Part shown: positions 1,230 to 22,586 of the stretch, piece after piece | Numbering within the stretch: position 1 is the first letter of the stretch | Layout of the letters: every line of letters starts with the position of its first letter | NCBI GenBank assembly: GCA_021787665.1 | Contig: JAJYLN010000021.1 | Location: forward strand, 1-44,453 | Length of the DNA: 44,453 nucleotides | Direction of reading: 5' to 3' | Origin: a bacterium | Lineage (GTDB): Bacteria > JAMCPX01 | Position numbers and translations under genes: made by a program | Notes under the pieces: generated by a model | Database searches by the model: none | What the model saw: only the letters and a program-made list of their open reading frames with translations | What the model was told of the DNA's origin: nothing

Positions 1230-1904
1230 TTACTTCTGGGCAGTACCCTGCTTGTTGTTTTTGTCCACCCACTTCTCCATGGCCTTTGCGTAGACCAGAG
1301 CGGACGACGTCGCTATTGCCGTGTTCAGTAGGGGCTGTTTCTCCAACATGTACCTGACCAGGAACCCGAGCGAGCTTATATCGGTATACACGCGGTAAAA
1401 CCCGATCGTCTCCTTCCCGTTGTCTATCGAGATCAGTTTCCAGGAGCCCTCAACCCTGTCGAGGTTCCCGGACACTCTTGTCCAGGTAACGCTCCCGGGC
1501 GGATCGAGGATCTGCTTCAGGACATAGTTCGCGTGCTCGGCTATGATCGAGAACTTGAATTCGATCCGGTATTTGACGAACCACGTGTTCCCCTGCTTCT
1601 TCGTTATCTTGACCTCTGTCGTCTGCGGTATGTTCCCGACATAGTGGTCGTAGTCCACGATCGTGGAGAACACCTTTTCGATCGGGGCATTGAACAGCGT
1701 TATGACGGTGACGAACTGCGGCTTGCCCGGTTTTTCGTTGTCGATGAAGATGAGCTGCCCTTTCTGGAGCAGGCTCTGCAGTACGGCAGGCGATGTGACT
1801 GCGAACTGCTCGACAATCGATGAGTTGTCCTGCGCACGTGCCGTCGCGGCAACCGAGAACAGCAGCGCAGCGGCCATAAGTCCGATTTTCTTTCCCTTGT
1901 TCAT
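1230..1904 (-). CDS. Secreted START/SRPBCC-type ligand-binding protein
   Basis: This 224-residue protein has a clear Sec signal peptide (residues 1-24: KKIG start, hydrophobic core, cleavage after ATARA). A START/polyketide-cyclase-like fold follows from about residue 60 to 215, recognised from the NAPIEKVFSTIVDYDHYVGN segment and the later VEGSWKLI strand. Such domains bind hydrophobic ligands in a cavity. No catalytic residues are evident, and export to the periplasm argues for binding or transfer rather than catalysis. It is the last gene of the minus-strand acyl-CoA operon, about 70 nt after the DUF35 gene, so it may handle the same hydrophobic substrate before uptake. That link is inference. 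Confidence 0.75.
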   Translation of the reverse strand: MNKGKKIGLMAAALLFSVAATARAQDNSSIVEQFAVTSPAVLQSLLQKGQLIFIDNEKPGKPQFVTVITLFNAPIEKVFSTIVDYDHYVGNIPQTTEVKITKKQGNTWFVKYRIEFKFSIIAEHANYVLKQILDPPGSVTWTRVSGNLDRVEGSWKLISIDNGKETIGFYRVYTDISSLGFLVRYMLEKQPLLNTAIATSSALVYAKAMEKWVDKNNKQGTAQK

Positions 1905-1973: not shown

Positions 1974-2423
1974 CTATATCAACTGGAAGTATGCTAAGTC
2001 TGCGAGCGCCCCGGTGGTGACGTCCTTGAACACGACCTTTATCCGCATGCCTTCCCTGACGTCGTGCCAGTCCTGCCAGCCTTCGAGTGTGCCCATGACG
2101 AGAGACTCGGAGCCATCGAACTTTACCGTACAGGTTATGAACGGATGCTCCACCGGATTGCCGCGAATGTCCGAGACGTTGACGGTAAAGGCATCCAGGG
2201 TGCCTTCCGGGCGCACCTCGACTACCTGGTCGATATCGATGAGACACTTCCTACAGTAGGATGTCCCCGGTACGTACACCGTACCGCATTTGGTACATTT
2301 CCTGCCGAGTATCTTTTTGTCCTTCAGTCCCTTCACAAACAGGTTGAGCGCGTCGGCCTCAACTTTCCAGCTGTACGTGGTCAAGTCCCAGGGGGACTCC
2401 ATGATTCTTGTTTCATTCGCCAT
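1974..2423 (-). CDS. DUF35 Zn-ribbon/OB-fold acyl-CoA-binding protein (copy 1)
   Basis: This 149-residue protein has the DUF35 layout: an N-terminal helix (ALNLFVKGLKDKKILG), a rubredoxin-like zinc ribbon with two CxxC pairs (KCTKCG and YCRKC, residues about 43-60), and an OB fold (about 65-149). DUF35 proteins are obligate partners of SCP2-type thiolases and thiolase-like aldolases. They bridge to the CoA ester and are sometimes fused to the partner, as in the steroid-degrading ChsH2/Ltp2 system, the benzoylsuccinyl-CoA thiolase BbsAB, and the archaeal thiolase/HMG-CoA synthase complex. It starts 9 nt after the thiolase-like gene at 2433-3683, its likely partner. The zinc ligands look intact. 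Confidence 0.88.
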   Translation of the reverse strand: MANETRIMESPWDLTTYSWKVEADALNLFVKGLKDKKILGRKCTKCGTVYVPGTSYCRKCLIDIDQVVEVRPEGTLDAFTVNVSDIRGNPVEHPFITCTVKFDGSESLVMGTLEGWQDWHDVREGMRIKVVFKDVTTGALADLAYFQLI

Positions 2424-2432
2424 ACTCCCTCC

Positions 2433-3683
2433 TTATGATTTTACCGGCGTTCTGCCGACCAGCGTTACCGTGACGAACTGGAAGAGTCCGCCCCAGCCGT
2501 GTGCTACTGCGTTCTCCACCTTCATCGGTATCTGGTGCCCGCCCTCGGCAAGCCCCATGACCTGCAAGGCAGCCTCGGAAACACGTACCATCGCTGATGC
2601 GCCTATGGCGTTCGTGCTGGTCACGCCTCCGGACGGATTGATGGGCATCTCTCCCCCTATCGCGAACGCGCCCTTGTCGAGCATCTCCGGCGACTTGCCC
2701 TCCTTTACCAGGCCGAGCCTCTCCGGCCACATGAGATCCTGGTGTGAAAAGCCGGAATATACCTCGGCTACCTGGATCTCCTTCGTGGGGTCCTTGATAC
2801 CGGCCATGGTGTACACCTTCTTTGCCACGACCTTGCACATGTGCTGCTCTGCCGGGTCTGTTATCTGCCCTTCCACGAAGTTCCCGGTCGTCGGATCGGA
2901 CGTGCCGGAGCCGAGCCCCTTGACCCAGGCGACCCGGTCCGTGAGCCCGAACTTCTTGGCCTTGCTCTCCGAGACGAGGATCATCGCTACGGCGCCGCAC
3001 GAGGTGGGGCAGGTGTGCCCGAACCGCAGCGGGTAGGTTATGATGGGGGTCTTCGCGATATCAGCCTCTGTACAGCCCGGCTGCTGGAGGTGCGCGTAGG
3101 GGTTCTTCGCGGCATTCGATCGCATCAGCGCCGCTATTCTGTCGATGTGCTCGATGCCAGCGTGCGCCCGTGAGAGGTAGGACATCGCCTGATAGGATGC
3201 TCCTCCGGTGGAGCCGCCGCCGCCGAGTCCTCCCACGCCGCCCCGCTCGGTATTCATTTCCGGTCCGAACTGGAACAGCGTGAATGCCTCGGGGAGTACG
3301 ATACCCACGAGTCCAACCTGAGAGTCGCCCTCGTCCTGTTTCTCCCATCCGATCGCCATGACGACATCGTACATCCCGGAGGCCACGTGGTAGTACGCTG
3401 CCTGGAATACGGAGGCGCCGGTCGTTCCGCCGGTCGCGACCCGCATGACTGGTTTTCCGGAGCCGTTGAAGTGGTCACTCGCCCACAGGTGCGGACCGTT
3501 TACACCTTCAAAGGTGTGCATGTTACCCACGACGTACGCCTGAATATCATCGGGCTTGAGCTTCGTCTTGCCCAGCGCATTGGTGACCGCCGGCTCTATC
3601 AACTCCGGTATGTTGACGTCCGGTCTCTTGCTGACAAACCTGCCGTTGTAGCCAACGCTTATGATTGCGACGTTCCTTTTCAT
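2433..3683 (-). CDS. SCP2/thiolase-like protein lacking the nucleophilic Cys (copy 1)
   Basis: This 416-residue thiolase-superfamily protein is of the lipid-transfer (SCP2) type. The nucleophile position, normally CATG or CSSG, reads GTTG (Gly86 in ATGGTTGASVF). The HDxF motif of SCP2 thiolases is replaced by YSGF, the second GHP motif by TNAIG, and the C-terminal Cys loop reads HGWGG. Classical thiolysis is therefore unlikely. A Cys-less thiolase fold with a DUF35 partner and a tyrosine near the active site recalls the steroid aldolase Ltp2, so aldol or retro-aldol cleavage of a CoA ester is a reasonable guess. The start codon overlaps the stop of the upstream thiolase-like gene (ATGA, 3680-3683), so translation is coupled. 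Confidence 0.85.
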   Translation of the reverse strand: MKRNVAIISVGYNGRFVSKRPDVNIPELIEPAVTNALGKTKLKPDDIQAYVVGNMHTFEGVNGPHLWASDHFNGSGKPVMRVATGGTTGASVFQAAYYHVASGMYDVVMAIGWEKQDEGDSQVGLVGIVLPEAFTLFQFGPEMNTERGGVGGLGGGGSTGGASYQAMSYLSRAHAGIEHIDRIAALMRSNAAKNPYAHLQQPGCTEADIAKTPIITYPLRFGHTCPTSCGAVAMILVSESKAKKFGLTDRVAWVKGLGSGTSDPTTGNFVEGQITDPAEQHMCKVVAKKVYTMAGIKDPTKEIQVAEVYSGFSHQDLMWPERLGLVKEGKSPEMLDKGAFAIGGEMPINPSGGVTSTNAIGASAMVRVSEAALQVMGLAEGGHQIPMKVENAVAHGWGGLFQFVTVTLVGRTPVKS

Positions 3684-4834
3684 TTTTCCCTCCTTACGAT
3701 AAAAACGACGTTCTGTTGCGCGCCCGGTCCATCCTGACCGTGTGCCAGCCCGGTCTTTGCGCCCTTTACCTGGTTCTTCCCTGCTTCCCCGTTGAGCTGG
3801 GCGCAGACGTCGACCAGTCGTATAAGGCCCGCCGCGTTGATCGGGTTTGCCCCGAGCGGCCCGCCTGACGGGTTGACCGGCATCTTGCCGTCCACGTTGC
3901 TGTCCCCGTTCGCGACGACTTCCTTGCCGCTGCCCTCCTTGAATAGCCCGAGCGCTTCAGCGAACACCGGCTCTTCCGATGCAAAGTTCGTATGGAGCTC
4001 GGCAAGGTCGATTTCCCGCTTCGGACTCTTGATACCAGCCATCCGGTACGCCTGCTCGCCGGCCGACCTGAGGCTGTCCATCCTGAGAAGGTCCCGGTCG
4101 CCGAGATAGTAGGTGTCCATAGAGTGTCCAACCCCGGTGATCCAGAGAGGCTTGTCCGTTATCCTTTTTGCTGCTTCCTCCGATGCAAGGACGACCGCTG
4201 CTGCGCCGTCAGCGTACGCGGAGACGTGGGCCTCGTGCAGGGGAGCATAGAGCGGCCTCGATCCGAGCACGCTGTCAACGGTCGGCTTCTGCTCCCGCCG
4301 TGCTGCGTAGGGGTTGTTGTTCGCATTCTTAAGGTCCTTTACCGTGAGCTTCGCGAGATCCCGTTCCTTGAAGCCGTACTTCTCCATGTATACCCGTGCC
4401 TGAAGTGCAGCGATCGAATGGAAGTTGATCAGTCCCCGGGGCCTCTCGTACGCCGGATCCATGACATAGGAATTGATCATGGGTGCCCTGAACTCCGAGC
4501 CGGACATGCTGAAGCCTATCGCGAGCGCGGTATCGTAGAGACCTGACTGTATCCTCATGTACGCATAGAGCGCGGCGTTCAGTCCGTCGGACTCCACCTT
4601 CGACTCGTCCTTCATGTAGGCCCCTATCCTCGGAACGATGTACACCTCGGAGATCGTCCTGCCGTCCGTGAAGTCGTTGCTTGCCAGGATGAAGGTGTCT
4701 ATAGCGTCCTTGGTAATGCCTATGTCGCTGTACAGTGACTTCACGAGCTCATAGACCATCCTCTCCCTGCTCACCAGGTTATCGAAGCTGTGCTTCGTTT
4801 GCTTGTAGCCGACTATTGCAACCCTTTTACCCAT
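3680..4834 (-). CDS. SCP2/thiolase-like protein lacking the nucleophilic Cys (copy 2)
   Basis: This 384-residue thiolase-superfamily protein begins MGKRVAIVGYKQTKH. The segment that normally holds the nucleophilic Cys reads VESDGLNAALYAY (Ser82/Asp83), so the nucleophile is missing. The ELHxxF region is partly kept (ELHTNF), the GHP motif is ANP, and the C-terminal loop is AHGQDGPGA. It is only distantly similar to the next thiolase-like gene, so the two are unlikely to be a recent duplication and may form a heteromeric pair. It lies between a DUF35 gene (39 nt upstream) and the second thiolase-like gene (4-nt overlap). The operon order is DUF35, thiolase, thiolase, DUF35. Substrate unknown. 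Confidence 0.85.
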   Translation of the reverse strand: MGKRVAIVGYKQTKHSFDNLVSRERMVYELVKSLYSDIGITKDAIDTFILASNDFTDGRTISEVYIVPRIGAYMKDESKVESDGLNAALYAYMRIQSGLYDTALAIGFSMSGSEFRAPMINSYVMDPAYERPRGLINFHSIAALQARVYMEKYGFKERDLAKLTVKDLKNANNNPYAARREQKPTVDSVLGSRPLYAPLHEAHVSAYADGAAAVVLASEEAAKRITDKPLWITGVGHSMDTYYLGDRDLLRMDSLRSAGEQAYRMAGIKSPKREIDLAELHTNFASEEPVFAEALGLFKEGSGKEVVANGDSNVDGKMPVNPSGGPLGANPINAAGLIRLVDVCAQLNGEAGKNQVKGAKTGLAHGQDGPGAQQNVVFIVRREK

Positions 4835-4873
4835 ATATGCCTCCTTTTCGATGATTCGGCCTTCCGGACCCTG

Positions 4874-5320
4874 CTATGCCGGTTCGAAGTACGCAAGGTC
4901 GCTGTAGCTCCCCTGGGTCTCTTCTTTCCAGACGGCCTTAACCCTGATACCCGTCTTTACCTTGTCGACTGCCACGCCCTTTACGACGGCGGAGAGCAGG
5001 CTGTCGGCCCCCTTGAGCTTGATCATGCCTATCACGTAAGGCTCCGCGTCCTTTATCTCGCCGCCCTCTATGGTCACGTGGGCGACCGTGAAGTTCTCGA
5101 GCGTCCCCTGTTGCTCCACCTCCACGTAGGTATCGAGCTTCTTATGGCAGCAACCGCAAACGGTCCGCGGCGGCACATATACCTTGTCACACGCCGGACA
5201 CTTGATTCCAAGGATCTTCTTGTCCTTCAGGCCATCGATGTACGTCTCCAGAGCCTGCCCCACCCTGTTCCTGTAAAGGAACGTTATCGGGACCATGGAT
5301 TTTATTGTTTCTCCTGGCAT
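4874..5320 (-). CDS. DUF35 Zn-ribbon/OB-fold acyl-CoA-binding protein (copy 2)
   Basis: This 148-residue DUF35 protein has the helix TYIDGLKDKKILG, a zinc ribbon with two CxxC pairs (KCPACD and VCGCC) and a C-terminal OB fold ending in DLAYFEPA. I start it at the ATG at 5320 because AGGAGG sits 5 nt upstream on the minus strand. A frame extending to 5371 exists, but its extra residues overlap the promoter and look non-coding. It is the first gene of the acyl-CoA operon. The ending resembles copy 1 (DLAYFQLI), so both belong to the same subfamily, while the third copy at 22041 is longer at the N terminus. Confidence 0.87.
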   Translation of the reverse strand: MPGETIKSMVPITFLYRNRVGQALETYIDGLKDKKILGIKCPACDKVYVPPRTVCGCCHKKLDTYVEVEQQGTLENFTVAHVTIEGGEIKDAEPYVIGMIKLKGADSLLSAVVKGVAVDKVKTGIRVKAVWKEETQGSYSDLAYFEPA

Positions 5321-5342
5321 AAAACCCTCCTTTTTCCAAAGA

Positions 5343-5371
5343 TCTATATACAATAAAAAAGGGGAATGCAA
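5343..5371 (-). promoter_or_regulatory. Sigma-70-like promoter of the minus-strand acyl-CoA operon
   Basis: On the minus strand, TTGCAT (-35, plus 5366-5371) and TATAGA (-10, plus 5343-5348) are 17 bp apart. Transcription would start near 5336, about 16 nt before the start codon at 5320, leaving room for the AGGAGG. The -35 is a weak match, which fits a regulated promoter. Confidence 0.5.
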
Positions 5372-5378
5372 GCATTAT

Positions 5379-5394
5379 TTGATTATATAATCAA
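5379..5394. promoter_or_regulatory. 16-bp palindromic operator candidate (TTGAT-N6-ATCAA)
   Basis: TTGATTATATAATCAA is a perfect palindrome just upstream of the -35 of the minus-strand acyl-CoA operon. It contains a TATAAT on each strand. The same half-sites with the same 6-bp spacing occur at 19646-19661, in front of the second thiolase/DUF35 operon. No regulator gene is adjacent here. Confidence 0.5.
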
Positions 5395-5467
5395 TTTGCC
5401 TTCGCCGGCCCCGGCGACCCTCGCAAAAAACCTTGCAAACGTTCAGGGATATGCTTTTATTCATACT

Positions 5468-6355
5468 ATGAAATCCGGTTTGATCGCCGTTATCGGCAGG
5501 CCCAACGTCGGCAAGTCTACCTTACTCAACAGGCTTATCAGCGAGAAGCTCGCGATCGTTTCTCCGAAGCCCCAGACGACGTGGCAGAGACTCCACGGCA
5601 TTCTCACCACCGGAGACGCCCAGTTCGTCTTCATCGATACGCCCGGCATAGAGACGGAGAGGACTTCGGGGTTCATAGCTGCCCTGAAAAAGGTGGCCCT
5701 GTCGGCGATGGACGACGCGGACGTGGTCCTCCACATCGTCGAGCCAGACCTGACGTCTAAGGAAACGGCACTCATCGGCGATCTGCGGAAGCTGGGAGAC
5801 AAGCCGAAGGTGCTGCTCATCAACAAGATCGACACCAAGAAGGACAAGGGGCAGCTGCTCCCGGTGGTGAAGTGGTACGCGGACCTTGCCCTGTACAGTG
5901 CCCTGCTGCCGGCCTCGGCGAAGACCGGCGACGGCATGGACCTCCTTCTTGCAGAGCTGGAAAAGCACCTGCCCACCGAGGGGATGCTCTACCATGCCGA
6001 TATGATAACGGACCGTTACGAGAAGGAGCTCGTAGCGGATCTCATCAGGGAGAAGCTGTTCTCCTTTACCAGAGAGGAGGTGCCGTATGCATCGGTCTGC
6101 ACGATCGATAAGTTCGACGAGTCCGAGCGGGACAGAATCATACGGATATACGCCACGATCTTCGTGGAGAAGCAGTCCCAGAAAGGCATCGTGATCGGCG
6201 CTCATGGCTCCATGATAAAACGGATAGGCGCTGCCGCGAGACTGGATATCGAGCGGCTGCTGGGGACGAAGGTATACCTCGAGCTCTACGTGAAAGTCAG
6301 ACAGGACTGGAAAAAGGATCGCGGGTTCCTGAGGGAGATAGGGCTGGAACGATGA
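5468..6355 (+). CDS. era: GTPase Era
   Basis: Era is a 16S rRNA-binding GTPase for 30S ribosome assembly. The 295-residue protein has G1 GRPNVGKS (10-17), G3 DTPG, G4 NKID, and a C-terminal KH domain with the GAHGSMIKRIG segment. I choose ATG 5468 because family members start within a few residues of this GRPNVGKS context; the frame is open back to 5366 but the extra residues look like spacer. The ribosome binding site is weak. The stop overlaps the start of der (ATGA), so the two assembly GTPases are coupled. The region upstream is shared with the divergent acyl-CoA operon. Confidence 0.95.
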   Translation: MKSGLIAVIGRPNVGKSTLLNRLISEKLAIVSPKPQTTWQRLHGILTTGDAQFVFIDTPGIETERTSGFIAALKKVALSAMDDADVVLHIVEPDLTSKETALIGDLRKLGDKPKVLLINKIDTKKDKGQLLPVVKWYADLALYSALLPASAKTGDGMDLLLAELEKHLPTEGMLYHADMITDRYEKELVADLIREKLFSFTREEVPYASVCTIDKFDESERDRIIRIYATIFVEKQSQKGIVIGAHGSMIKRIGAAARLDIERLLGTKVYLELYVKVRQDWKKDRGFLREIGLER

Positions 6356-7665
6356 ACCCGCTCGTGGTGATCGTGGGCAGGCCGAACGTGGGCAAGTCCA
6401 GGCTGTTCAACAGGATGGCATCGAAGAGGAGGTCCCTCGTCCTCGACCTCAGGGGCACGACGCGGGACGTCATCACGGAGACCGTGGCATGGGGCCGTTC
6501 GACGTTCGATATCATGGATACCGGGGGACTGACGGACGAGAGTGGCAATCTCCATGAGCGGATAAACCGAAGGGTGGAGGATGTCGTGGGCCGGGCAGCG
6601 GCCGTTATCATGGTGTGCGACTACAAGGCGGGGGTAACGCCCTACGACCGCGACATCGGGAGATGGCTCAGGAAGCTCGACCGTCACGTCGTGCTCGCCG
6701 TGAACAAGATCGACAGCCCGGCCGGGCTGGACGACCTCGGCGAGTTCCACCAGCTCGGGTTCCCGGAGACCTTCGGTACCTCGGCCGAGCACGGGTACGG
6801 GGTCGACCAGATCATGGACGCGGTGGTGGACCATCTCAAGGCACGGCACCTCTTCCCCATGACGGCAGACGCTGCGGTGCCGCCTCCCTTGAGGCTGGTC
6901 TTCGCCGGCAAGCCCAACGCAGGAAAATCGAGCATGGTGAACCGTGTCGTGGGCAGGGAGTCCGTGATAGTCGACGATAAGCCCGGCACGACAAGGGATC
7001 CGGTAGAGTTCAGCATAAAGGCCGGCGGCAGGCACCTGCTCCTGATCGACACCGCCGGGCTCAAGAAGAGCGCGGCGGGCACGCGGGTCGAGGCGATGGC
7101 GAGCACGAGGTCCGAGGACATGATAGCGAGAGCGGACATCGTCGTGCTCATGGTCGATGCGGCGGTCGGGGTGACCGGCCACGACAAGAAGATCGTAGAC
7201 CTGATCCTATCCAGCGGCAAGGCGTGCGCGTTAGCGATGAACAAATGGGACCTCGTTGCCGAACGGGACAAGGAGCGCCTGCTGCGGGAGACGTCGAGCA
7301 TGCTCGGCTTCGCCTCCTTTATCCCGATCCTGCCGACCTCGGCGGTCACCGGGCAGGGGGTCCGGACGCTGATGCACGAGGTCATCCGCATAGCCGACGC
7401 GTACGCCCACAGGGTCCCGACCCCGGCGCTCAACCGGTTTTTCGGAAAGGTACTCGGCGAGCACCAGCCCGTGTCCAGCGGCGGGAAGCTGATACGGCTC
7501 TACTACCTGGTTCAGGTGGCCGTTCGGCCGCCGGTGTTCGTCATCTTTACGAACAGCGCAAAAGGTATTAAGGAGAACTACAGCAGGTTCGTCGTCAGCA
7601 GGATCCGGGACATATTCGGGTTCCCCGGCGTACCGATCAGGGTCATATTCAGGGACAAGAGGTAG
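6352..7665 (+). CDS. der: GTPase Der (EngA)
   Basis: Der is the double-GTPase factor of 50S ribosome assembly. The 437 residues carry two G domains: the first with GRPNVGKS (8-15), DTGG and NKID, the second with GKPNAGKSS, DTAG and NKWD, followed by the KH-like C-terminal domain. The residue after the first P-loop is Arg (GKSRLFN) rather than the usual Thr, Ser or Ala, a small oddity. Length is normal for the family. It overlaps era by 4 nt, and the YihY gene follows after one base. Confidence 0.95.
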   Translation: MNPLVVIVGRPNVGKSRLFNRMASKRRSLVLDLRGTTRDVITETVAWGRSTFDIMDTGGLTDESGNLHERINRRVEDVVGRAAAVIMVCDYKAGVTPYDRDIGRWLRKLDRHVVLAVNKIDSPAGLDDLGEFHQLGFPETFGTSAEHGYGVDQIMDAVVDHLKARHLFPMTADAAVPPPLRLVFAGKPNAGKSSMVNRVVGRESVIVDDKPGTTRDPVEFSIKAGGRHLLLIDTAGLKKSAAGTRVEAMASTRSEDMIARADIVVLMVDAAVGVTGHDKKIVDLILSSGKACALAMNKWDLVAERDKERLLRETSSMLGFASFIPILPTSAVTGQGVRTLMHEVIRIADAYAHRVPTPALNRFFGKVLGEHQPVSSGGKLIRLYYLVQVAVRPPVFVIFTNSAKGIKENYSRFVVSRIRDIFGFPGVPIRVIFRDKR

Positions 7666-7666
7666 C

Positions 7667-8497
7667 ATGAAGCAGGACAGGAAGGGATCGATTCTTTCCG
7701 TAGCGATAGACAGATTCATGGCGGATACATGCATGTCTCACGCGGCGGCGCTGTCGTTCTACGTCGTGCTGTCGATCATCCCCCTCATGTTCGTCGTCGT
7801 GTCCGTGGGGAGCTATATCGTGGGCTCGACCGGCCGTTTCTTCGCGTACGCCGTGTCCATCATGAGGCAGTTCATCCCGGATGTCTCGCCGGCCATCATC
7901 AACGATATGCACAACATCATCGAGAGGCGCAGTACCATCGGGATCATCGGCTTCGTGTTCCTGCTGTTCGCGTCCGACCTTGCGGTCCTCGAGGCGAAGC
8001 GATCGCTGGACGTGATCTTTAGGCTCGAGAAGAGGCGCAACCCCCTGTTCATCAAGGGAAAGTCCATGGTAGCCATACTGCTCAGCGGTCTTGTCGTATC
8101 GCTCCTGTTCATTATCACGCCGGTATTCAGGGTCCTGATAAAGCTCGATCTTCCGGTGCTCAGCAGGACGCTCTACGTCATGGCGTTTATCGTATCGAGC
8201 CACGCGTTTGCGTTTCTGATGGTGTTCCTGCTGTTCACGGCGGCGTACTCGTTCCTGCCGTCGAAGCGGATTGCCCGCGAGTACAGCCTGATGGCCGGCG
8301 CGCTGACGACGGTCCTCTGGACCATCGTACGGGTTCTGTTCTCCTGGTACATCATGCACCACTCGAACATAAACATCGTGTATGGGTCCCTTGCAGCCAT
8401 TATCATCACTATCCTGTGGGTGTACTACACCTCCCTCATATTCCTGTTCTCCGCGGAGCTCGTGTCGAGCGTACGGGAGAGGAAGGAGCAGCGGTGA
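7667..8497 (+). CDS. YihY/BrkB family inner-membrane protein
   Basis: This 276-residue protein has about six membrane segments and the family hallmarks: an N-terminal AAALSFYVVLSIIPLMF segment and a C-terminal VYGSLAAIIITILWVYYTS segment. YihY/BrkB (UPF0761) proteins were once called RNase BN in error; their true function is not settled. The gene begins one base after der and overlaps the histidine kinase start by 4 nt (GTGA at 8494-8497), so it belongs to the same transcription unit. Confidence 0.88.
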   Translation: MKQDRKGSILSVAIDRFMADTCMSHAAALSFYVVLSIIPLMFVVVSVGSYIVGSTGRFFAYAVSIMRQFIPDVSPAIINDMHNIIERRSTIGIIGFVFLLFASDLAVLEAKRSLDVIFRLEKRRNPLFIKGKSMVAILLSGLVVSLLFIITPVFRVLIKLDLPVLSRTLYVMAFIVSSHAFAFLMVFLLFTAAYSFLPSKRIAREYSLMAGALTTVLWTIVRVLFSWYIMHHSNINIVYGSLAAIIITILWVYYTSLIFLFSAELVSSVRERKEQR

Positions 8498-9957
8498 AGA
8501 CAAAATCGCGGATGCCGATCAACATCAAGTACATGCTCCCCATCGTGATGCTTACCATCGTCACGATATCTATCTATACCCTTTTTATCCGGATCAGCAC
8601 GTCGGACGTGTTCCGGCAGTACCTGCGGGACGAGATACGGCTCATCATCAACGACATCAACAAGACGATAACGATCCACATGCTCACGGGCAGGGGCCAG
8701 GTGCTCAATACCTACCTGGGCAGCCTGTACAACTACGAGATAAAGGACGTCACCGCCCTCGGCATCCTGGACCGGTCGGGCAAGCCGATCTACCTCTACT
8801 CGAGGAGCAAGAACCGGCGGTTGACCCTGCCGCCGATGCACAGCTACCTGAACATGGTCACCACGGAGCACAAGAACAACATCGAGGTTTTCTATCCCAT
8901 CAACAACGAGAGCACGTGCTACCGGTGTCACAGCGCCGCTTCGCCGCTCCTCGGCCTGCTGTACGTGAAGATATCGACCAGCAGGTACAACACGGCGTTC
9001 AGGGGCCTGCTCTCGAACTGGTTCACGATGAGTGTCGTCGTGGTCTCTATCCTGATATTCTCCATCTGGCTCATCACGACCATCGTCATCGAGAAGCCGG
9101 TCGAGGACCTCGTCGGTACATTGAAGAAAGCCTCGGAGGGCAACCTGTCCGTACGGATGTCCACGCACGAGAACGACGAGCTGGGCTACCTGGGAGAGCA
9201 GGTGAACGTGATGCTCGACCGGCTCGCGTACAAGGAGGCCGAGGCGAAGAAGGCGACCGCTCTCCAGATACAGCGGATGGACAAGCTCGCGTCGCTCGGG
9301 GAGATCTCCCTGTCCCTCGCGCACGAGATACGAAACCCGCTCGCCGGCATCAGCGGCGTGCTGCAGGTGTTCAAGGACGACCTTGTTACCGATCAGGAAA
9401 AATCTGCTATGTTCACCCAGATCATGCAGCAGATAGGGAAGATAGACAAGCTCGTCGGAGATATGCTTACCTTTTCGAAGCTGCCGGTGCACGACATAAC
9501 GGTGTTCAACATCAACGACAGCATAAAGGCGATGAGGCTCCTCCTCGATCCGCAGTCCACAGCTGGACACGTCAGTGTTACGATGCCGCTGGACAGCGGC
9601 GTACCGTCCATCAAGGCCGACCGGGACAGCCTCGAACAGGTGATCATCAACCTCATGCTCAACGCCATCCAGGCGATGCCGGACGGAGGGACGCTGGAGG
9701 TGTCCACGGAGTTCATCGATACCTTCGGCGAGCCGTACATCCTGATCAAGATCAGAGATACCGGCACCGGCATCCCGGCGGACATACGGGACCGGGTCTT
9801 CGATCCGTTCTTTACGACGAAGCACCACGGTACCGGACTCGGCCTCGCGATAAGCCTGAGCGTCGTGCGGGCCATGAACGGGAACATAACCTTTGAGACA
9901 GAAGAAGGAAAGGGTACGACGTTCTTTGTGCGGATACCCTATGTGGAGGTCACATGA
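8494..9957 (+). CDS. Membrane sensor histidine kinase with a periplasmic CxxCH heme site
   Basis: The 487-residue kinase starts at GTG 8494, with AAGGAG 5 nt upstream and a 4-nt overlap with YihY. Order: TM1 (about 14-32), periplasmic sensor (33-177), TM2 (178-199), HAMP (about 200-250), HisKA with phospho-acceptor His277 (SLAHEIRNPLAG), and a HATPase domain with DTGTGIP and GTGLGLAIS boxes. The sensor contains C142-Y-R-C145-H146, a c-type heme attachment motif, so the protein probably senses redox state, O2 or NO through a covalently bound periplasmic heme. It would need the cytochrome c maturation system, which the cytochrome genes in this window imply. The response regulator overlaps its stop by 4 nt. 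Confidence 0.9.
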   Translation: MKTKSRMPINIKYMLPIVMLTIVTISIYTLFIRISTSDVFRQYLRDEIRLIINDINKTITIHMLTGRGQVLNTYLGSLYNYEIKDVTALGILDRSGKPIYLYSRSKNRRLTLPPMHSYLNMVTTEHKNNIEVFYPINNESTCYRCHSAASPLLGLLYVKISTSRYNTAFRGLLSNWFTMSVVVVSILIFSIWLITTIVIEKPVEDLVGTLKKASEGNLSVRMSTHENDELGYLGEQVNVMLDRLAYKEAEAKKATALQIQRMDKLASLGEISLSLAHEIRNPLAGISGVLQVFKDDLVTDQEKSAMFTQIMQQIGKIDKLVGDMLTFSKLPVHDITVFNINDSIKAMRLLLDPQSTAGHVSVTMPLDSGVPSIKADRDSLEQVIINLMLNAIQAMPDGGTLEVSTEFIDTFGEPYILIKIRDTGTGIPADIRDRVFDPFFTTKHHGTGLGLAISLSVVRAMNGNITFETEEGKGTTFFVRIPYVEVT

Positions 9958-11388: not shown

Positions 11389-12453
11389 ATGAAGGTAGGC
11401 ATAACCGGCATAGCAGGCTATCTCGGGACGCTGTTGTCACGGCAGCTCGTCCGGGAACGCACGATTGAATCCGTGACCGGCATCGATTTGCGGGAGCCTT
11501 CGTTCCGGCATGAGAAGATACGGTTCGTGAAGTGCGACATCCGGGACCACGCGCTCGCCCCTGCCCTGGCAGGCTGCGACACGATCGTACACCTGACCTT
11601 CGTGGTACAGGAGATCAGGGACAAGAAGCTCATCTACGACATAAGCCTCAACGGCACAAAAAACCTCCTCGGCGCGTGCGGCGCGATCATGCCGCGGAAG
11701 CTCGTCGTGGCGAGCAGCGTCGCTGCGTACGGCTGTGTGCAGCGCAGCGGGGCCATCACAGAAGACACCGAGCTCCGGGGCAACAAAGGCTCGTACTATG
11801 CGGATACGAAGCGGCGTGTCGAGGGCATGCTCGACGACTTCGAGAAGAGCAACCCCGGCATTATCGTTACCAGGATGAGGCCGTCCATATTCTGTGGAAG
11901 GAATATCAATAACTTCTTCAAAGACACCGTCAGGCTCCCGGTCATTACCTATGTCCGCGGCAATACGTACGGCCTGCCGCTGGTGTACGAGGGCGATGTC
12001 GCCGGGGCCTTCTGCACGGTGATCCTGGAGGACCACCCCGGGGCATTCAATATCCATGCAGGATCCCTGACGGTACAGAGGATGTCCAAGATACTCGGGA
12101 AGAGGACCATCGGCCTGCCCTACCGGCTCGCGAGGACCATCGCGGATCTCGGCTTCGGTCTCGGTATCATGAGGTTCTCGAGCCATTGGGTCGAGCTTGC
12201 ACGGTACCCGATGGACATACGCGCCGAGAAGGCGGAACGGGAGTTGCACTGGAGGCCGACGAAGACGCCGGAGCAGGCGTTTGTCGAGATGCTCGACAGC
12301 CTGAAAGGGCGGCGGGAAGGGGGGACGCATGAAGGCCGACGAGCTGCGCCTGTTTCTGGATTCTGCAGACAGGTTCATGAAGGCGGAGATGACGTCCCAC
12401 CTGGGCGCACTGGATCTCTATCCGCAGAAAGACCGGCCCTTTTCTGTCCATGA
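11389..12453 (+). CDS. NAD-dependent epimerase/dehydratase, extended by a probable 3' frameshift
   Basis: This extended-SDR protein has an N-terminal GITGIAGYLG nucleotide-binding loop and the SSVAAYG and YADTKR active-site segments (Ser, Tyr, Lys). Such enzymes act on nucleotide sugars or hydroxysteroid-like substrates; the specificity is not readable. I start at ATG 11389 with GGAGA upstream. As written it runs to 354 residues, but the last ~40 read through the start of the next gene and look meaningless (GRREGGTHEGRRAAP...). One more G in the run at 12319-12324 would bring a TGA into frame that overlaps the next ATG as ATGA, the usual junction in this window. The natural protein probably ends near residue 314. 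Confidence 0.85.
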   Translation: MKVGITGIAGYLGTLLSRQLVRERTIESVTGIDLREPSFRHEKIRFVKCDIRDHALAPALAGCDTIVHLTFVVQEIRDKKLIYDISLNGTKNLLGACGAIMPRKLVVASSVAAYGCVQRSGAITEDTELRGNKGSYYADTKRRVEGMLDDFEKSNPGIIVTRMRPSIFCGRNINNFFKDTVRLPVITYVRGNTYGLPLVYEGDVAGAFCTVILEDHPGAFNIHAGSLTVQRMSKILGKRTIGLPYRLARTIADLGFGLGIMRFSSHWVELARYPMDIRAEKAERELHWRPTKTPEQAFVEMLDSLKGRREGGTHEGRRAAPVSGFCRQVHEGGDDVPPGRTGSLSAERPALFCP

Positions 12454-13399
12454 CCGGCTCGTGGAGTCCGGTATCCTGAACCTGGAGGAGCTGGATGATG
12501 CGGGCCTTACCCCGGGCGACGTGGTCAGACTCCTGTTCACCCTGTCACGCCACTGCGCAGGCATCGGTGCATTCGTAAGGTACACCCTTGCCGGAGAGAT
12601 GCTGAAGAAAAGGTATGCGTCCGGACAGGTGCCGAAGGGGCCTGTCGGCATCGGTATCGGTGAGGAGGCCGATATCGACATCGAGCATGGCAGCCCGGAC
12701 TTCCAGACGAGACTTGCCGGGGGCACGGTCCGCGGCACGAAGAAGTCTGTCCTCATGGCAGGCGACGCTGCTCTCTATGCCGTGTTCGCAAAGGGGGACG
12801 ATGGCGATTATCTGGTATGGGTGGACGCCGGTGCAGACGCCGTCGAGACAGCACAGCCGGTCGGGCTGCTCGGTATACGGGCCGTCCGGTGCGCGGACGT
12901 TGCATTCGAGGCAGCGCCGGCGCTTGCCGCGGTAAAAGTCGGGCCAGGAGAGGGGGCTGGCGCGCTGTCCTGCATCGTGGCACTGCTCGGACTCTTCAAT
13001 GCCGCTTGTGCCTCCGGGACCGCAAACGCCGGGCTCGGGAAGGCGTGGGAGTACGCGGGGCAACGGTATCAAGGCGGCAGGCTGATAGAGGGCTACGATG
13101 CCATACGGCTTATGTATACCAGGAACGCTGCCCTGACAGGGGCTTCGTAGGAGGCGATCCTCGCTGCTGCGGACCGCTTCGAAGACAGTACGCCGGAGCC
13201 GCTGCGGGCATGCATCCGGGCAAAGGTTAGCGGCACCGCGAGCGCGGTGAACGCCCTGCTCGATGCGATACAGATACACGGCGGCTACGGATACATGAGG
13301 GATTACGGAATCGAAAAGCGGTTCAGGGACGCCGTCACCCTCTCGCTCCTGCCGTTCGACAATACCAGGCTCGCACTCATGCTTGCCGGCAGGGGCTGA
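12329..13399 (+). pseudogene. Acyl-CoA dehydrogenase interrupted by an in-frame amber codon
   Basis: The frame opens at ATG 12329 and encodes a divergent acyl-CoA dehydrogenase. A TAG at 13148-13150 stops it after 273 residues, yet the same frame continues without another stop to TGA 13397-13399. The downstream 82 residues hold the family's C-terminal FAD-domain signature (IHGGYGYMRDYGIEKRFRD), so the break is recent, an assembly error, or read through. The catalytic Glu of the usual YEGT motif is not present (LPFDN there). TAG is an ordinary stop elsewhere in the window (7663, 15663, 35136), which argues against recoding. The start lies inside the end of the epimerase frame. Confidence 0.8.
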
Positions 13400-19620: not shown

Positions 19621-19661
19621 TTGCATTGTCTGCACGGTTCTGATATTGATAAAAGAATCAA
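19621..19661 (+). promoter_or_regulatory. Promoter and operator candidate of the second acyl-CoA operon
   Basis: TTGCAT (19621-19626) is 17 bp from TATTGA (19644-19649), a weak promoter. Overlapping the -10 is TTGATAAAAGAATCAA (19646-19661), with the same half-sites and spacing (TTGAT-N6-ATCAA) as the palindrome at 5379-5394. The -35 is also the same hexamer as in the minus-strand operon. A repressor bound here would block the -10. Confidence 0.5.
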
Positions 19662-19668
19662 AAAATCT

Positions 19669-19688
19669 CTGTCCATACATACGGACAG
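19669..19688 (+). repeat. Short hairpin just before the ribosome binding site
   Basis: CTGTCC (19669-19674) and GGACAG (19683-19688) form a perfect stem with an 8-nt loop, 5 nt upstream of the AAGGAGG (19694-19700) of the acyl-CoA dehydrogenase gene. It could stabilise the mRNA end or serve as a second operator. Confidence 0.35.
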
Positions 19689-19705
19689 GGAGCAAGGAGG
19701 AGTCC

Positions 19706-20842
19706 ATGACCGATGTTTTTTTGAGCGAGGCACAGGAGAAGCTCCGTGAGCAGGCGAAGGAGTACATGGCGAAAGAGGTGATACCTGCCGCCGAGAAGAT
19801 CGACAACGACGACGTTATCCCGGAAGCGCTCGTCAAGAAGCTTCTCGGCCCTCCCCTGCGGCTGACCGGGATCTCCGTGCCGAAGGAGTACAACGGCATG
19901 GGCGCGAGTACGATCGATGCGTGCGTCGTTGCAGAGCAGGTCGGTTACGCCTGTCCCGCGCTGATTCCCCTCATGGAGATCGCACAGCTCTTCGTACACG
20001 GTCTCCTGTACGGGGGCACCGAGCAGCAGAAGAAGCGGTACCTCCCGAGGCTCGCGGAAGGGATGGTCGGTTGCTACGCGCTGACCGACGAGGGCCCGGG
20101 CTCCGACCCTGCCGGCATGAAGTCCACGGCCACGAAGAAGGAGGACGGCTACGTGCTGAACGGCAGGAAGCGGCTCGTGACCTTCGCGGACATCTCGGAG
20201 TTCTACATCGTCTTTGCAAAGACCTCCCCGGAGAAGGGGGGCAAGGGCATCAGCGGCTTTGTCCTCGAGGGCAAGCCCGAGGGGTTCGTCTTCGAGAGCC
20301 ACGCACGGACGATGGGACTCAGGGGGCACCGGGCGTTCAACGTACTGCTGGACGACTTGTTTGTCCCGGCGCAGAACCTCCTGGGCAAGGCCGATGAGGG
20401 CCTTCGGCTCGCGCTGGAGATTCTCAATACGACCCGGATAAGCCTCGCTGCCGGCTTTGTCGGTCTCGCGTCCGCTGCCTTCGATGCGGCCGTGAAGTTT
20501 GCAAAGCAGCGGGTGATAGGCGGAAGGCCGGTGATCGAAAACCAGGCCGTGGCCTTCCCCCTGGCCGAGCTTGCGGCGCGGATAGACGCAGCGCGGCTCC
20601 TTACCTACCGCGCCGCTGCCATGCACGACAAGGGCCTGAAGCACAAGAAAGAGACTTCGCTGGCGAAGTTCTACGCCGGGGAGACCCTCATCCAGTCGGT
20701 GGAAGTCGCGAGCAGGACGCTCGGTGCCTACGGCGCCTCGCCGGATTACCCGGTCGAGCGGTATCTGAGAGACGCCTTCTCCTGGATCGCCGCACAGGGC
20801 ACGGTCGAGGTCCAGAAGCTCGTCGTCTCGAGAGAGCTGTGA
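19706..20842 (+). CDS. Acyl-CoA dehydrogenase family protein lacking the canonical catalytic Glu
   Basis: The 378-residue protein has the normal acyl-CoA dehydrogenase order: helical N domain, beta domain with the FAD-contact segment CYALTDEGPGSDPAG, and C-terminal helices with YPVERYLRDAFSW. The usual catalytic base in YEGT is replaced (IAAQGT, Gln). The alternative position used by isovaleryl-CoA dehydrogenase also lacks Glu (LNTTRISLAAG). The enzyme may therefore use another base or not act as a dehydrogenase. ATG 19706 has AAGGAGG 5 nt upstream; the frame is open further back but crosses the operator. Its stop overlaps the thiolase-like start (TGATG). Confidence 0.88.
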   Translation: MTDVFLSEAQEKLREQAKEYMAKEVIPAAEKIDNDDVIPEALVKKLLGPPLRLTGISVPKEYNGMGASTIDACVVAEQVGYACPALIPLMEIAQLFVHGLLYGGTEQQKKRYLPRLAEGMVGCYALTDEGPGSDPAGMKSTATKKEDGYVLNGRKRLVTFADISEFYIVFAKTSPEKGGKGISGFVLEGKPEGFVFESHARTMGLRGHRAFNVLLDDLFVPAQNLLGKADEGLRLALEILNTTRISLAAGFVGLASAAFDAAVKFAKQRVIGGRPVIENQAVAFPLAELAARIDAARLLTYRAAAMHDKGLKHKKETSLAKFYAGETLIQSVEVASRTLGAYGASPDYPVERYLRDAFSWIAAQGTVEVQKLVVSREL

Positions 20843-22035
20843 TGAAGCGGGTGGGAATTGTCGGTGTGGGCACCACGCAGTTCAGGTCCAGGTGGACGGA
20901 GAAGACCTACTTCGAACTGGCGTTCGATGCGGTGAAAATGGCGCTGGAGGATGCCGGCGCTGCGAAGGAGCAGATAGACTGCGTGGTGTACGGCATCTAC
21001 AACGACTTCTTCGAGAGACAGTTTCAGCCGGACCTGTTTGTCCACGACTACCTCGGCATGGCACCGAAGCCCGGGATACGGGTGTCGACCGGAGGAGCTA
21101 CCGGCGGGAGCGCGCTGAGCGCCGGGTTCGCACAGGTGGCATCCGGGCTCTACGACGTGTGCCTCGTCGTCGGGGTGGAGAAGTCCGCAGACTGCCTCGA
21201 TTACGAGAGCGGTAAATCGAGTCCGGAGGTGCTGAAGGCGATATCCTATACCGCGGACATGACGTACGAGCAGCCTACCGGCCGGACAGCGGCCGGATCG
21301 TTCGCCCTGACCACCATCGCGCACCTCGAGAAGTATGGGAACCCCACGGAGCTCCAGATGGCGAAAGTCTCCGTGAAGAATCATACGAACGCGTTACTCA
21401 ACCCGGTATCCCAAAGTCCCATCGCACTGACCGTGGACGACGTCATGAAGTCGCCCATGATAGCGTACCCGTTCAAGCGGTATGACAACTGTCTGTACTC
21501 GGAGGGCTCCGCGGTGCTCATACTCGCGTCCGAGGATGCCGCGAAGAGGTTCAGGAAGCAGCCCGTATGGATACAGGGGATTGGTGCTGCGCTGGACTGG
21601 GCGATCATCGGCAACAGGAAGGATCTGTACAGCTTCGAGTCGAGCAGGATAGCCGCAAAGAAGGCGTACACGATGGCAGGCATACAGCATCCTTTGGAAG
21701 AGATAGACCTGGCCGAGCTGCACGATGCGTTCACCGGCACGGAACTGATCGCCTACGAGGACTGCTTCTTCTGCGAGGAGGGGCAGGGCGGCAGGTTGAT
21801 CGACGACGGCATTGTCGAGGCGAGCGGCAAGCTGCCCGTGAACGTGAGCGGAGGACTGATAGGGTGCGGTCATGCCGTTGGTGCGACCGGCATCATGCAG
21901 ACGAACGAAATCGTTCTTCACCTGAGGGGTGAGGCCGGCAAGCGGCAGGTCGCGGGCGCTCGGACCGGGCTCGTTCAGAGCATCGGGGGCCCCGGCGCGG
22001 CATGGACGGTGTGCCTGGTGCTGGAAAGGGAGTAA
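20842..22035 (+). CDS. SCP2/thiolase-like protein lacking the nucleophilic Cys (copy 3)
   Basis: This 397-residue SCP2-type thiolase-superfamily protein has Gly85 in STGGATGGSALSAGF where the nucleophilic Cys should be. Unlike the two minus-strand copies it keeps the HDAF motif (ELHDAFTGTEL) and a GHAVGATG version of the GHP motif. The C-terminal Cys is Ser/Ile (QSIGGPGA). It could bind and polarise an acyl-CoA but not form the usual acyl-enzyme. The STGGATGG loop is nearly the same as ATGGTTGA in copy 1, so those two are related. ATG 20842 overlaps the upstream stop by one base; GTG 20839 is possible. The DUF35 partner follows 5 nt after its stop. Confidence 0.86.
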   Translation: MKRVGIVGVGTTQFRSRWTEKTYFELAFDAVKMALEDAGAAKEQIDCVVYGIYNDFFERQFQPDLFVHDYLGMAPKPGIRVSTGGATGGSALSAGFAQVASGLYDVCLVVGVEKSADCLDYESGKSSPEVLKAISYTADMTYEQPTGRTAAGSFALTTIAHLEKYGNPTELQMAKVSVKNHTNALLNPVSQSPIALTVDDVMKSPMIAYPFKRYDNCLYSEGSAVLILASEDAAKRFRKQPVWIQGIGAALDWAIIGNRKDLYSFESSRIAAKKAYTMAGIQHPLEEIDLAELHDAFTGTELIAYEDCFFCEEGQGGRLIDDGIVEASGKLPVNVSGGLIGCGHAVGATGIMQTNEIVLHLRGEAGKRQVAGARTGLVQSIGGPGAAWTVCLVLERE

Positions 22036-22040
22036 TAAGC

Positions 22041-22586
22041 ATGGACAAACAGACTTTCCTAACATGGGCGGGCAGGAACGCACGGCGCATCGGCGTGAAG
22101 AAGGATCTTGTCGTTCAGGCGTTCGAGAAGGCAATGACCTCGCAGGCTGGCCCGGACGCCCCGTTCGAGGTGCCGGACACGATGCATATCAATATGAGGT
22201 ACTCGTACGGGGGGCAGTCGAGGTTCTTCAGGGAGATATTCGAGAACAAGAGGCTCATGGGTACCCGGTGCAGCGCGTGCAGCAAAGTGTTCTGTCCGCC
22301 GCGCACGAACTGTCCCCACTGCTACGGCCGGACGGAGTGGGTCGAGCTCCGGGGAACGGGCAAGATCCTGAGCTATACGACCGTATACTTCGCCACGTCG
22401 TCCTATATCAAGCAGGTGCCGTACATCGTCGCGTACATAAAGCTCGACGGGGCGGACACCGCAATCCTCTCCAATGTGGAGATGAAGGACATCGGGAAGG
22501 CGAGGGTTGGTATGGAGGTAAAGGTCGTATTCCGCAACCAGAGGGACGGCAGGATCACGGACATCTATTTCAGGGAGAACGGGTGA
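22041..22586 (+). CDS. DUF35 Zn-ribbon/OB-fold acyl-CoA-binding protein (copy 3)
   Basis: The 181-residue protein has a longer N terminus (about 60 residues including TFLTWAGRNARRIG) than the other DUF35 copies. A helix (QSRFFREIFENKRLMG), a zinc ribbon (RCSACS and NCPHC) and an OB fold ending near DIYFRENG follow. I start at ATG 22041, which follows GGGAG and the TAA of the thiolase-like gene; a frame to 22002 exists but lies inside the upstream gene. Expected to form a complex with thiolase-like copy 3. Confidence 0.88.
   Translation: MDKQTFLTWAGRNARRIGVKKDLVVQAFEKAMTSQAGPDAPFEVPDTMHINMRYSYGGQSRFFREIFENKRLMGTRCSACSKVFCPPRTNCPHCYGRTEWVELRGTGKILSYTTVYFATSSYIKQVPYIVAYIKLDGADTAILSNVEMKDIGKARVGMEVKVVFRNQRDGRITDIYFRENG

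Follow-up and report, generated by a model that had tools for sequence, protein, structure and literature searches.

The window analysed here, a contig of 44,453 nt, belongs to a 2.25 Mb bacterial draft genome (G000). At positions 1974-5320, its minus strand carries an operon of four genes in the order DUF35a, thiolase-like B, thiolase-like A and DUF35b, and a gene for an SRPBCC/START-like protein then follows (Table 1). We describe the two thiolase-like proteins (A and B), neither of which has the nucleophilic Cys of thiolases, and the two DUF35 proteins encoded beside them. The initial annotation had proposed these genes in this order, and all of them were found on the minus strand where it had placed them. 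DUF35a and B are separated by 39 nt, B and A overlap by 4 nt (ATGA), and the spacings between A and DUF35b and between DUF35b and the SRPBCC gene are 9 nt and 69 nt, respectively.

Table 1. Genes of the operon and the gene that follows it (positions in the window)
Feature	Position	Strand	Description	Basis or predicted role
DUF35a	4874..5320	-	Zinc-ribbon/OB-fold protein, 148 aa, zinc ligands CPAC...CGCC, first gene of the operon	Pfam PF12172 and PF01796 above cut-off
Thiolase-like B	3680..4834	-	384 aa, Cys-loop shortened to ESDG, HTNF, ANP, motif DFTDGRTIS	PF22691; predicted non-catalytic/accessory subunit
Thiolase-like A	2433..3683	-	416 aa, Gly86, Tyr309, Asn358	PF22691; predicted catalytic aldolase subunit
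DUF35b	1974..2423	-	Second zinc-ribbon/OB-fold protein, 149 aa, CTKC...CRKC	Pfam PF12172 and PF01796
SRPBCC/START-like protein	1230..1904	-	224 aa, signal-peptide-like N-terminus	PF03364

Pfam searches detected Thiolase_C_1 in both thiolase-like proteins (E values of 3.5e-25 for A and 2.7e-29 for B), zf-ChsH2 and OB_ChsH2_C in both DUF35 proteins, and Polyketide_cyc in the fifth gene product. A and B are about 26-30% identical and are thus dissimilar yet clearly homologous. Both DUF35 proteins are members of that family, each with two domains above the gathering score and four zinc-binding Cys residues. The nearest solved relatives of DUF35a are SSO2064 (3irb), an archaeal DUF35 protein (6esq), ShyDUF35 (9myr), PhlB and the DUF35 domain of ChsH2. 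DUF35b matched SSO2064 in phmmer with an E value of 1.1e-16.

When A was aligned with the zebrafish SCP2-thiolase, Gly86 was found at the position of the nucleophilic Cys. Furthermore, Y309-S-G-F stands in place of the thiolase H-D-x-F motif, and Asn358 in place of the His of the GHP motif. In B, the loop is shortened to E81-S82-D83-G84, HTNF and ANP are present at the motif positions, and no conserved catalytic residue remains at them. No Cys that could substitute for the nucleophile was found: A contains Cys only at positions 204, 225, 229 and 283, and B only at position 344. A true thiolase in which the Cys has moved to another place was rejected on this basis. Membership in the SCP2-type thiolases was also rejected, as the nucleophilic Cys, the HDCF motif and the GHP His are absent from A and B. 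Thiolysis via a covalent Cys intermediate is impossible in either protein. Thus, the earlier description of both proteins as Cys-less, with Gly86 in A and a Ser82-Asp83 loop in B, is correct.

The same annotation had pointed out a Tyr in place of the HDxF His of A. This Tyr309 lies at the catalytic base position of two aldolases, Ltp2 and Sal. According to PMC12329534, Ltp2 (Y294DHF) and Sal (Y302DCY) use the motif Tyr as their catalytic base, and both enzymes are homodimers flanked by two DUF35 domains. Sal also has Gly at the Cys position (PMC12329534). For this comparison, the catalytic Tyr of A was mapped via the SCP2-thiolase alignment and published motifs, and the position of Sal Gln352 was located via the 9myr structure aligned to a homologue. 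A possesses the retro-aldolase signature of Ltp2 and Sal, namely a Tyr at the base position and no nucleophilic Cys. The Gly/Tyr signature supports the proposal in the initial annotation of an Ltp2-like protein that works with DUF35 partners in aldol-type chemistry.

A shares with the Ltp2-ChsH2(DUF35) aldolase (6ok1) the thiolase fold without nucleophilic Cys, the Tyr base at the HDxF position and the DUF35 partner. However, Ltp2 is homodimeric, A has neither its Tyr344 nor the His of its YDHF motif, and the identity is about 23%. With the Sal-Shy(DUF35) bile acid aldolase (9myr), A has in common the Gly at the Cys position, the Tyr base and the DUF35 partner. Sal is likewise homodimeric, unlike the proposed A-B pair, and its catalytic Cys304 and Gln352 are replaced by Gly and Asn, respectively, in A. 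The benzoylsuccinyl-CoA (CoA, coenzyme A) thiolase BbsAB (7pxp) also combines an SCP2-type thiolase with a DUF35 subunit, but it has a single thiolase gene and is a true thiolase. Identity with BbsAB was rejected: A and B scored 88-107 bits and the DUF35 proteins 20-21 bits, against NCBIfam equivalog cut-offs of 750 (BbsB) and 250 (BbsA).

Single-chain AlphaFold2 models predicted full thiolase folds for B (mean predicted local distance difference test score of 91) and A (86). A Gly-rich insertion of A, at about residues 139-155, was poorly predicted. The best structural matches (Z of about 42-52) were the archaeal thiolase/HMGCS/DUF35 complex, SCP2-type thiolases, BbsB, PhlC, Ltp2 and Sal, whereas ordinary thiolases matched with Z of 37-38. 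PDB 4yzo (ST0096 of Sulfolobus tokodaii), a solved 'thiolase-like' structure, is one of the nearest structural entries to both B and the Ltp3-like protein. It is seemingly Cys-less (GSGGSA) and retains HD and GHP.

The distribution of the genes was analyzed by scanning named genomes with an A-type alignment. Thiolase-like and DUF35 genes were mapped in each of the resulting 72 loci, all of which are anchored on A. Since the A-derived scan patterns cover neither Tyr309 nor B, the conservation of Tyr309 and the pairing with B are not built into the results. The bacterial loci are from deep Actinomycetota, Blastocatellia, Planctomycetota, Chloroflexota, Desulfobacterota, Spirochaetes, Rokubacteria and Acetobacteraceae, and the archaeal loci are from Asgard-type and Sulfolobales archaea. 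Deep Actinomycetota are the closest named outgroup (54-55% identical). One bacterium (G022) has an A copy that is about 73-75% identical and several more A/B/DUF35 modules, one of which has a fused tandem DUF35.

B adjoins A in 71 of 82 cases. The remaining A genes are mostly at contig ends, or their B is frameshifted or shortened. For the 48 well-flanked cases, the arrangement was DUF35-B-A-DUF35 (29 cases), B-A-DUF35-DUF35 (8), DUF35-DUF35-B-A (3) or B-A with one following DUF35 (8). Two DUF35 genes are thus present in 40 of the 48, and the order is maintained across phyla. The cassette is not peculiar to this genome: it occurs in dozens of loci, spread over numerous phyla of bacteria and archaea, and usually keeps its gene order. 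In four Jordarchaeia loci (L069, L071, L076 and L104), an A-type gene is present without an adjoining B or DUF35 gene, and its product has Cys85 (TCGSTG or TCGTTG).

The three active-site residues of A are strictly conserved. Gly86 is present in 83/83 A-type proteins, Tyr309 in 81/83 and Asn358 in 82/82, whereas the same columns vary in B. Seven A proteins of other lineages have a Cys at position 85, one residue ahead of the nucleophile position. Many B proteins from other lineages retain Tyr or His at the HDxF position. In addition, a motif specific to B, D-x-x-DGRTIS, was found near residues 54-62 in 62 of 80 B proteins but in none of 82 A proteins. This motif may face A across the dimer.

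The relationship between A, B and the DUF35 proteins was examined with trees. A tree of 185 proteins placed every A protein in one clade and 76 of 80 B proteins in another (support 0.966). The A and B of the window are inside these clades, together with those of L156, L158 and L160. The distances within A and B mirror each other (mirror-tree r of 0.93; the best of 999 permutations gave 0.24). Thus, A and B are two ancient, co-varying clades, as judged from their sequences. The 5' and 3' DUF35 genes are also mostly split between two clades, with 30 of 42 cassettes in each, and the four cassette genes mirror one another pairwise with r of 0.90-0.96. Separate clades with mirrored distances are the pattern expected from a four-part complex. 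The conserved cassette, the A and B clades, their correlation and the two DUF35 lineages therefore lend indirect support to the earlier suggestion of a hetero-complex of two thiolases and two DUF35 proteins.

Within the host family, A is present in all nine genomes (8/8 of the others searched), and the cassette is complete unless the contig ends. The named relatives are metagenome-assembled bacteria, one of them titled Deltaproteobacteria, and the isolate names suggest mining-site sediments. Within the family, the A proteins are 83-94% identical, whereas the neighbouring GTPases reach 65-78% (Era) and 57-74% (Der). Such conservation above Era and Der is unusual for a supposed catabolic enzyme. 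The ratio of non-synonymous to synonymous substitution rates (NG86, window against nearest relative) is 0.04-0.11 for all four genes, which indicates strong purifying selection. Pseudogene decay was rejected on this basis, also for B. Because A is more conserved than Era and Der and the genes are under strong purifying selection, the sequence comparison suggests a core role of A in this lineage.

The nearest described relatives are Ltp3 and Ltp4 of actinobacteria. PMC6678751, PMC6593523 and PMC7807495 describe them as aldol lyases required for C24-branched sterol side chains, and PMC6678751 also reports that Ltp3 and Ltp4 act as one heteromeric aldol lyase. One Tsukamurella plasmid carries a tandem DUF35 gene together with the genes for a PRK07937 and a PRK08313 protein, close to a P450 and a steroid 3-ketoacyl-CoA thiolase. 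From this gene context and from the mycobacterial gene names, we take the PRK07937 and PRK08313 proteins to be Ltp4 and Ltp3, respectively. In Tsukamurella and Nocardia, the Ltp3-like proteins group in the A clade and the Ltp4-like proteins in the B clade, and PRK08313 is by a wide margin the best NCBIfam family for A.

As in the Ltp3/Ltp4 systems, A and B of the window are adjacent, both are Cys-less, there are two DUF35 domains per pair, and A carries the Gly-Tyr-Asn signature (EIYVPFS and SSNPIGA in Tsukamurella). In contrast, the window has two separate DUF35 genes instead of a tandem gene, a roughly 30-residue Gly-rich insertion in A, no sterol gene context and a different host lineage. 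We found no description of the four-gene cassette as a whole, nor of Ltp3/Ltp4 outside actinobacterial sterol degradation, in the open literature searched. The system is real and well conserved, and its kind is already represented by Ltp3/Ltp4. The initial annotation had regarded a hetero-dimeric core of this type as unfamiliar; given PMC6678751, this view is not supported.

Based on these results, we consider it probable, at roughly 0.6, that A and B form a heteromeric core with the two DUF35 proteins, in which A acts as a Tyr-based (retro-)aldolase on a beta-hydroxyacyl-CoA and B shapes the pocket. The four proteins would form one complex on the dimer plan of the SCP2-type thiolases, with the DUF35 proteins flanking the A-B core. 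By analogy with Ltp2 and Sal, Tyr309 of A would take a proton from the hydroxyl group of the beta-hydroxyacyl-CoA, and retro-aldol cleavage would follow. The products would be an acyl-CoA enolate and an aldehyde or ketone; the reverse aldol addition would be equally possible. B, which has lost the active-site loop, may give the substrate pocket its shape or widen it. The heterodimeric steroid hydratase ChsH1-ChsH2 offers a precedent: there, ChsH2 has no catalytic residues and accommodates the bulky substrate for ChsH1 (PMC11321319). B might also supply the missing general acid. The DUF35 proteins would be placed next to the CoA site and may provide a link to a hydratase, as DUF35 does for Ltp2 and Sal.

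The remainder of the genome is consistent with such chemistry. CoA-ester metabolism is prominent in G000, judging from its 19 matches to acyl-CoA dehydrogenases and its 7 DUF35 domains. Another cluster (L053, contig C3, positions 2776-9740) contains an AMP-binding-like gene, an acyl-CoA dehydrogenase, a Sal-like thiolase, a DUF35 gene, paired MaoC hydratases and an aldehyde dehydrogenase. This Sal-like thiolase is Cys-less, has a Tyr (YDVF) and matches 9myr with an E value of 2e-44. From its gene content, the cluster looks like a full set for oxidation, hydration, retro-aldol cleavage and aldehyde oxidation, which supports aldol-type chemistry in this organism. Several of the scanned loci are also near acyl-CoA dehydrogenases, and some are near paired MaoC hydratases.

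Several observations weigh against an A/B aldolase complex. A does not have the second catalytic residue of either known aldolase: Gly311 is at the position of His296 (Ltp2) or Cys304 (Sal), and Asn358 at that of Tyr344 (Ltp2) or Gln352 (Sal). A scored 355.7 bits against PRK08313 (NF006180; cut-off 514, Tsukamurella protein 734), and B scored 215.8 bits against PRK07937 (NF005924; cut-off 419, Tsukamurella protein 593). Since both scores are under the cut-offs, the window cassette is a divergent relative outside both curated families. No sterol, hydratase or dehydrogenase gene adjoins the operon in its own family. The mirror-tree signal also arises from shared operon inheritance, and the four Jordarchaeia A genes are truly without B. 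The neighbouring genes (Era, Der, a YihY-like protein and a two-component pair) give no clue to the substrate, and pathway genes are not shared by the closest outgroup loci either.

We also considered C-C bond formation by Claisen-type condensation or acyl transfer, as in PhlABC/MucABC or the archaeal thiolase/HMG-CoA synthase/DUF35 complex (5m3k, 9vbo and 6esq). In fold and sequence, A and B have close relatives in PhlC, MucABC and the archaeal complex. The architecture is also the same: an active and a second, different thiolase-superfamily protein have a DUF35 in common (PMC2954200). However, these systems rely on a catalytic Cys, which A and B do not have, and their second protein belongs to the KASIII/HMGCS branch. 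A instead carries the Tyr of the aldolases and has Asn in place of the GHP His. Moreover, an archaeal-type thiolase/HMGCS pair with intact Cys is already encoded elsewhere in G000 (L051). Thus, we regard this reaction as unlikely for the operon.

It is quite unlikely that A and B are separate homodimers, each with its own DUF35 protein, and serve as two enzymes for two steps or two substrates. The homodimeric Ltp2 and Sal described above are precedents, and the two DUF35 lineages could correspond to one per thiolase. The Jordarchaeia A genes without B and the Tyr or His at the HDxF position in many B proteins of other lineages point in the same direction. In contrast, A and B are nearly always adjacent and co-vary, Ltp3-Ltp4 is reported as one heteromeric enzyme (PMC6678751), and B of the window has no recognisable set of catalytic residues. 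It is very unlikely that the proteins serve as a decarboxylase, or non-catalytically as a carrier or scaffold for acyl-CoA: TbSLP (Tyr in YDCF), which is among the fold matches, decarboxylates malonyl-CoA very slowly, but no such activity was found in Sal and TbSLP is proposed as an aldolase too (PMC12329534), and the strict Gly/Tyr/Asn signature of A favours catalysis.

A bolder form of the A/B aldolase complex, in which the pair would be one more, composite type of thiolase-fold aldolase, is doubtful but can be stated. The active site of A may be completed across the interface by the degenerate B, through D-x-x-DGRTIS and ESDG, and the operon may carry out a core, possibly biosynthetic C-C reaction in this lineage, the system having spread among bacteria and archaea far beyond steroid degradation.

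The A/B/DUF35 architecture reaches well past actinobacterial sterol degradation, into archaea and many bacterial phyla. Annotation as 'thiolase' or 'lipid-transfer protein' is probably wrong for the whole class of such proteins. The cassette raises the testable question of whether Cys-less pairs perform aldol chemistry on CoA esters, with a dead-looking twin completing the active site. We consider the interest moderate: the cassette is widespread, it is conserved at the level of a core function, and it poses the question of the general acid.

In Desulfobacterota, L100, L105 and L122 each have two different A/B modules with DUF35 proteins a few kb apart. Acyl-CoA dehydrogenases are located 3' of the modules in L100 and L105, and a MaoC-like pair is also present in L100. 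Judging from gene content, these modules probably belong to entire uncharacterised CoA-ester degradation pathways.

The putatively exported SRPBCC/START-like protein is encoded 3' of the cassette in most relatives and is not always present. A homologue adjoins the cassette in five other f1 loci (L033, L034, L035, L037 and L038), and none was found beside it in the f1 loci L032 and L036. In the unrelated genome G022, a 32% identical homologue follows an A/B/DUF35 cassette (L042) at a distance of about 1.8 kb.

The window also contains a third Cys-less thiolase-like gene (20839-22035, plus strand), which has STGGATGGS but retains HDAF and CGHA. It is flanked on the same strand by an acyl-CoA dehydrogenase gene (19646-20842) and a third DUF35 gene (22002-22586), and L050 contains a paralogue (60% identical) that also has a DUF35 of its own. 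At 12329-13150 (plus strand), there is a short, divergent acyl-CoA dehydrogenase-like frame of 273 aa with a weak PF02770 match. Its PF00441 match runs past a TAG, so the frame is perhaps disrupted or mis-assembled.

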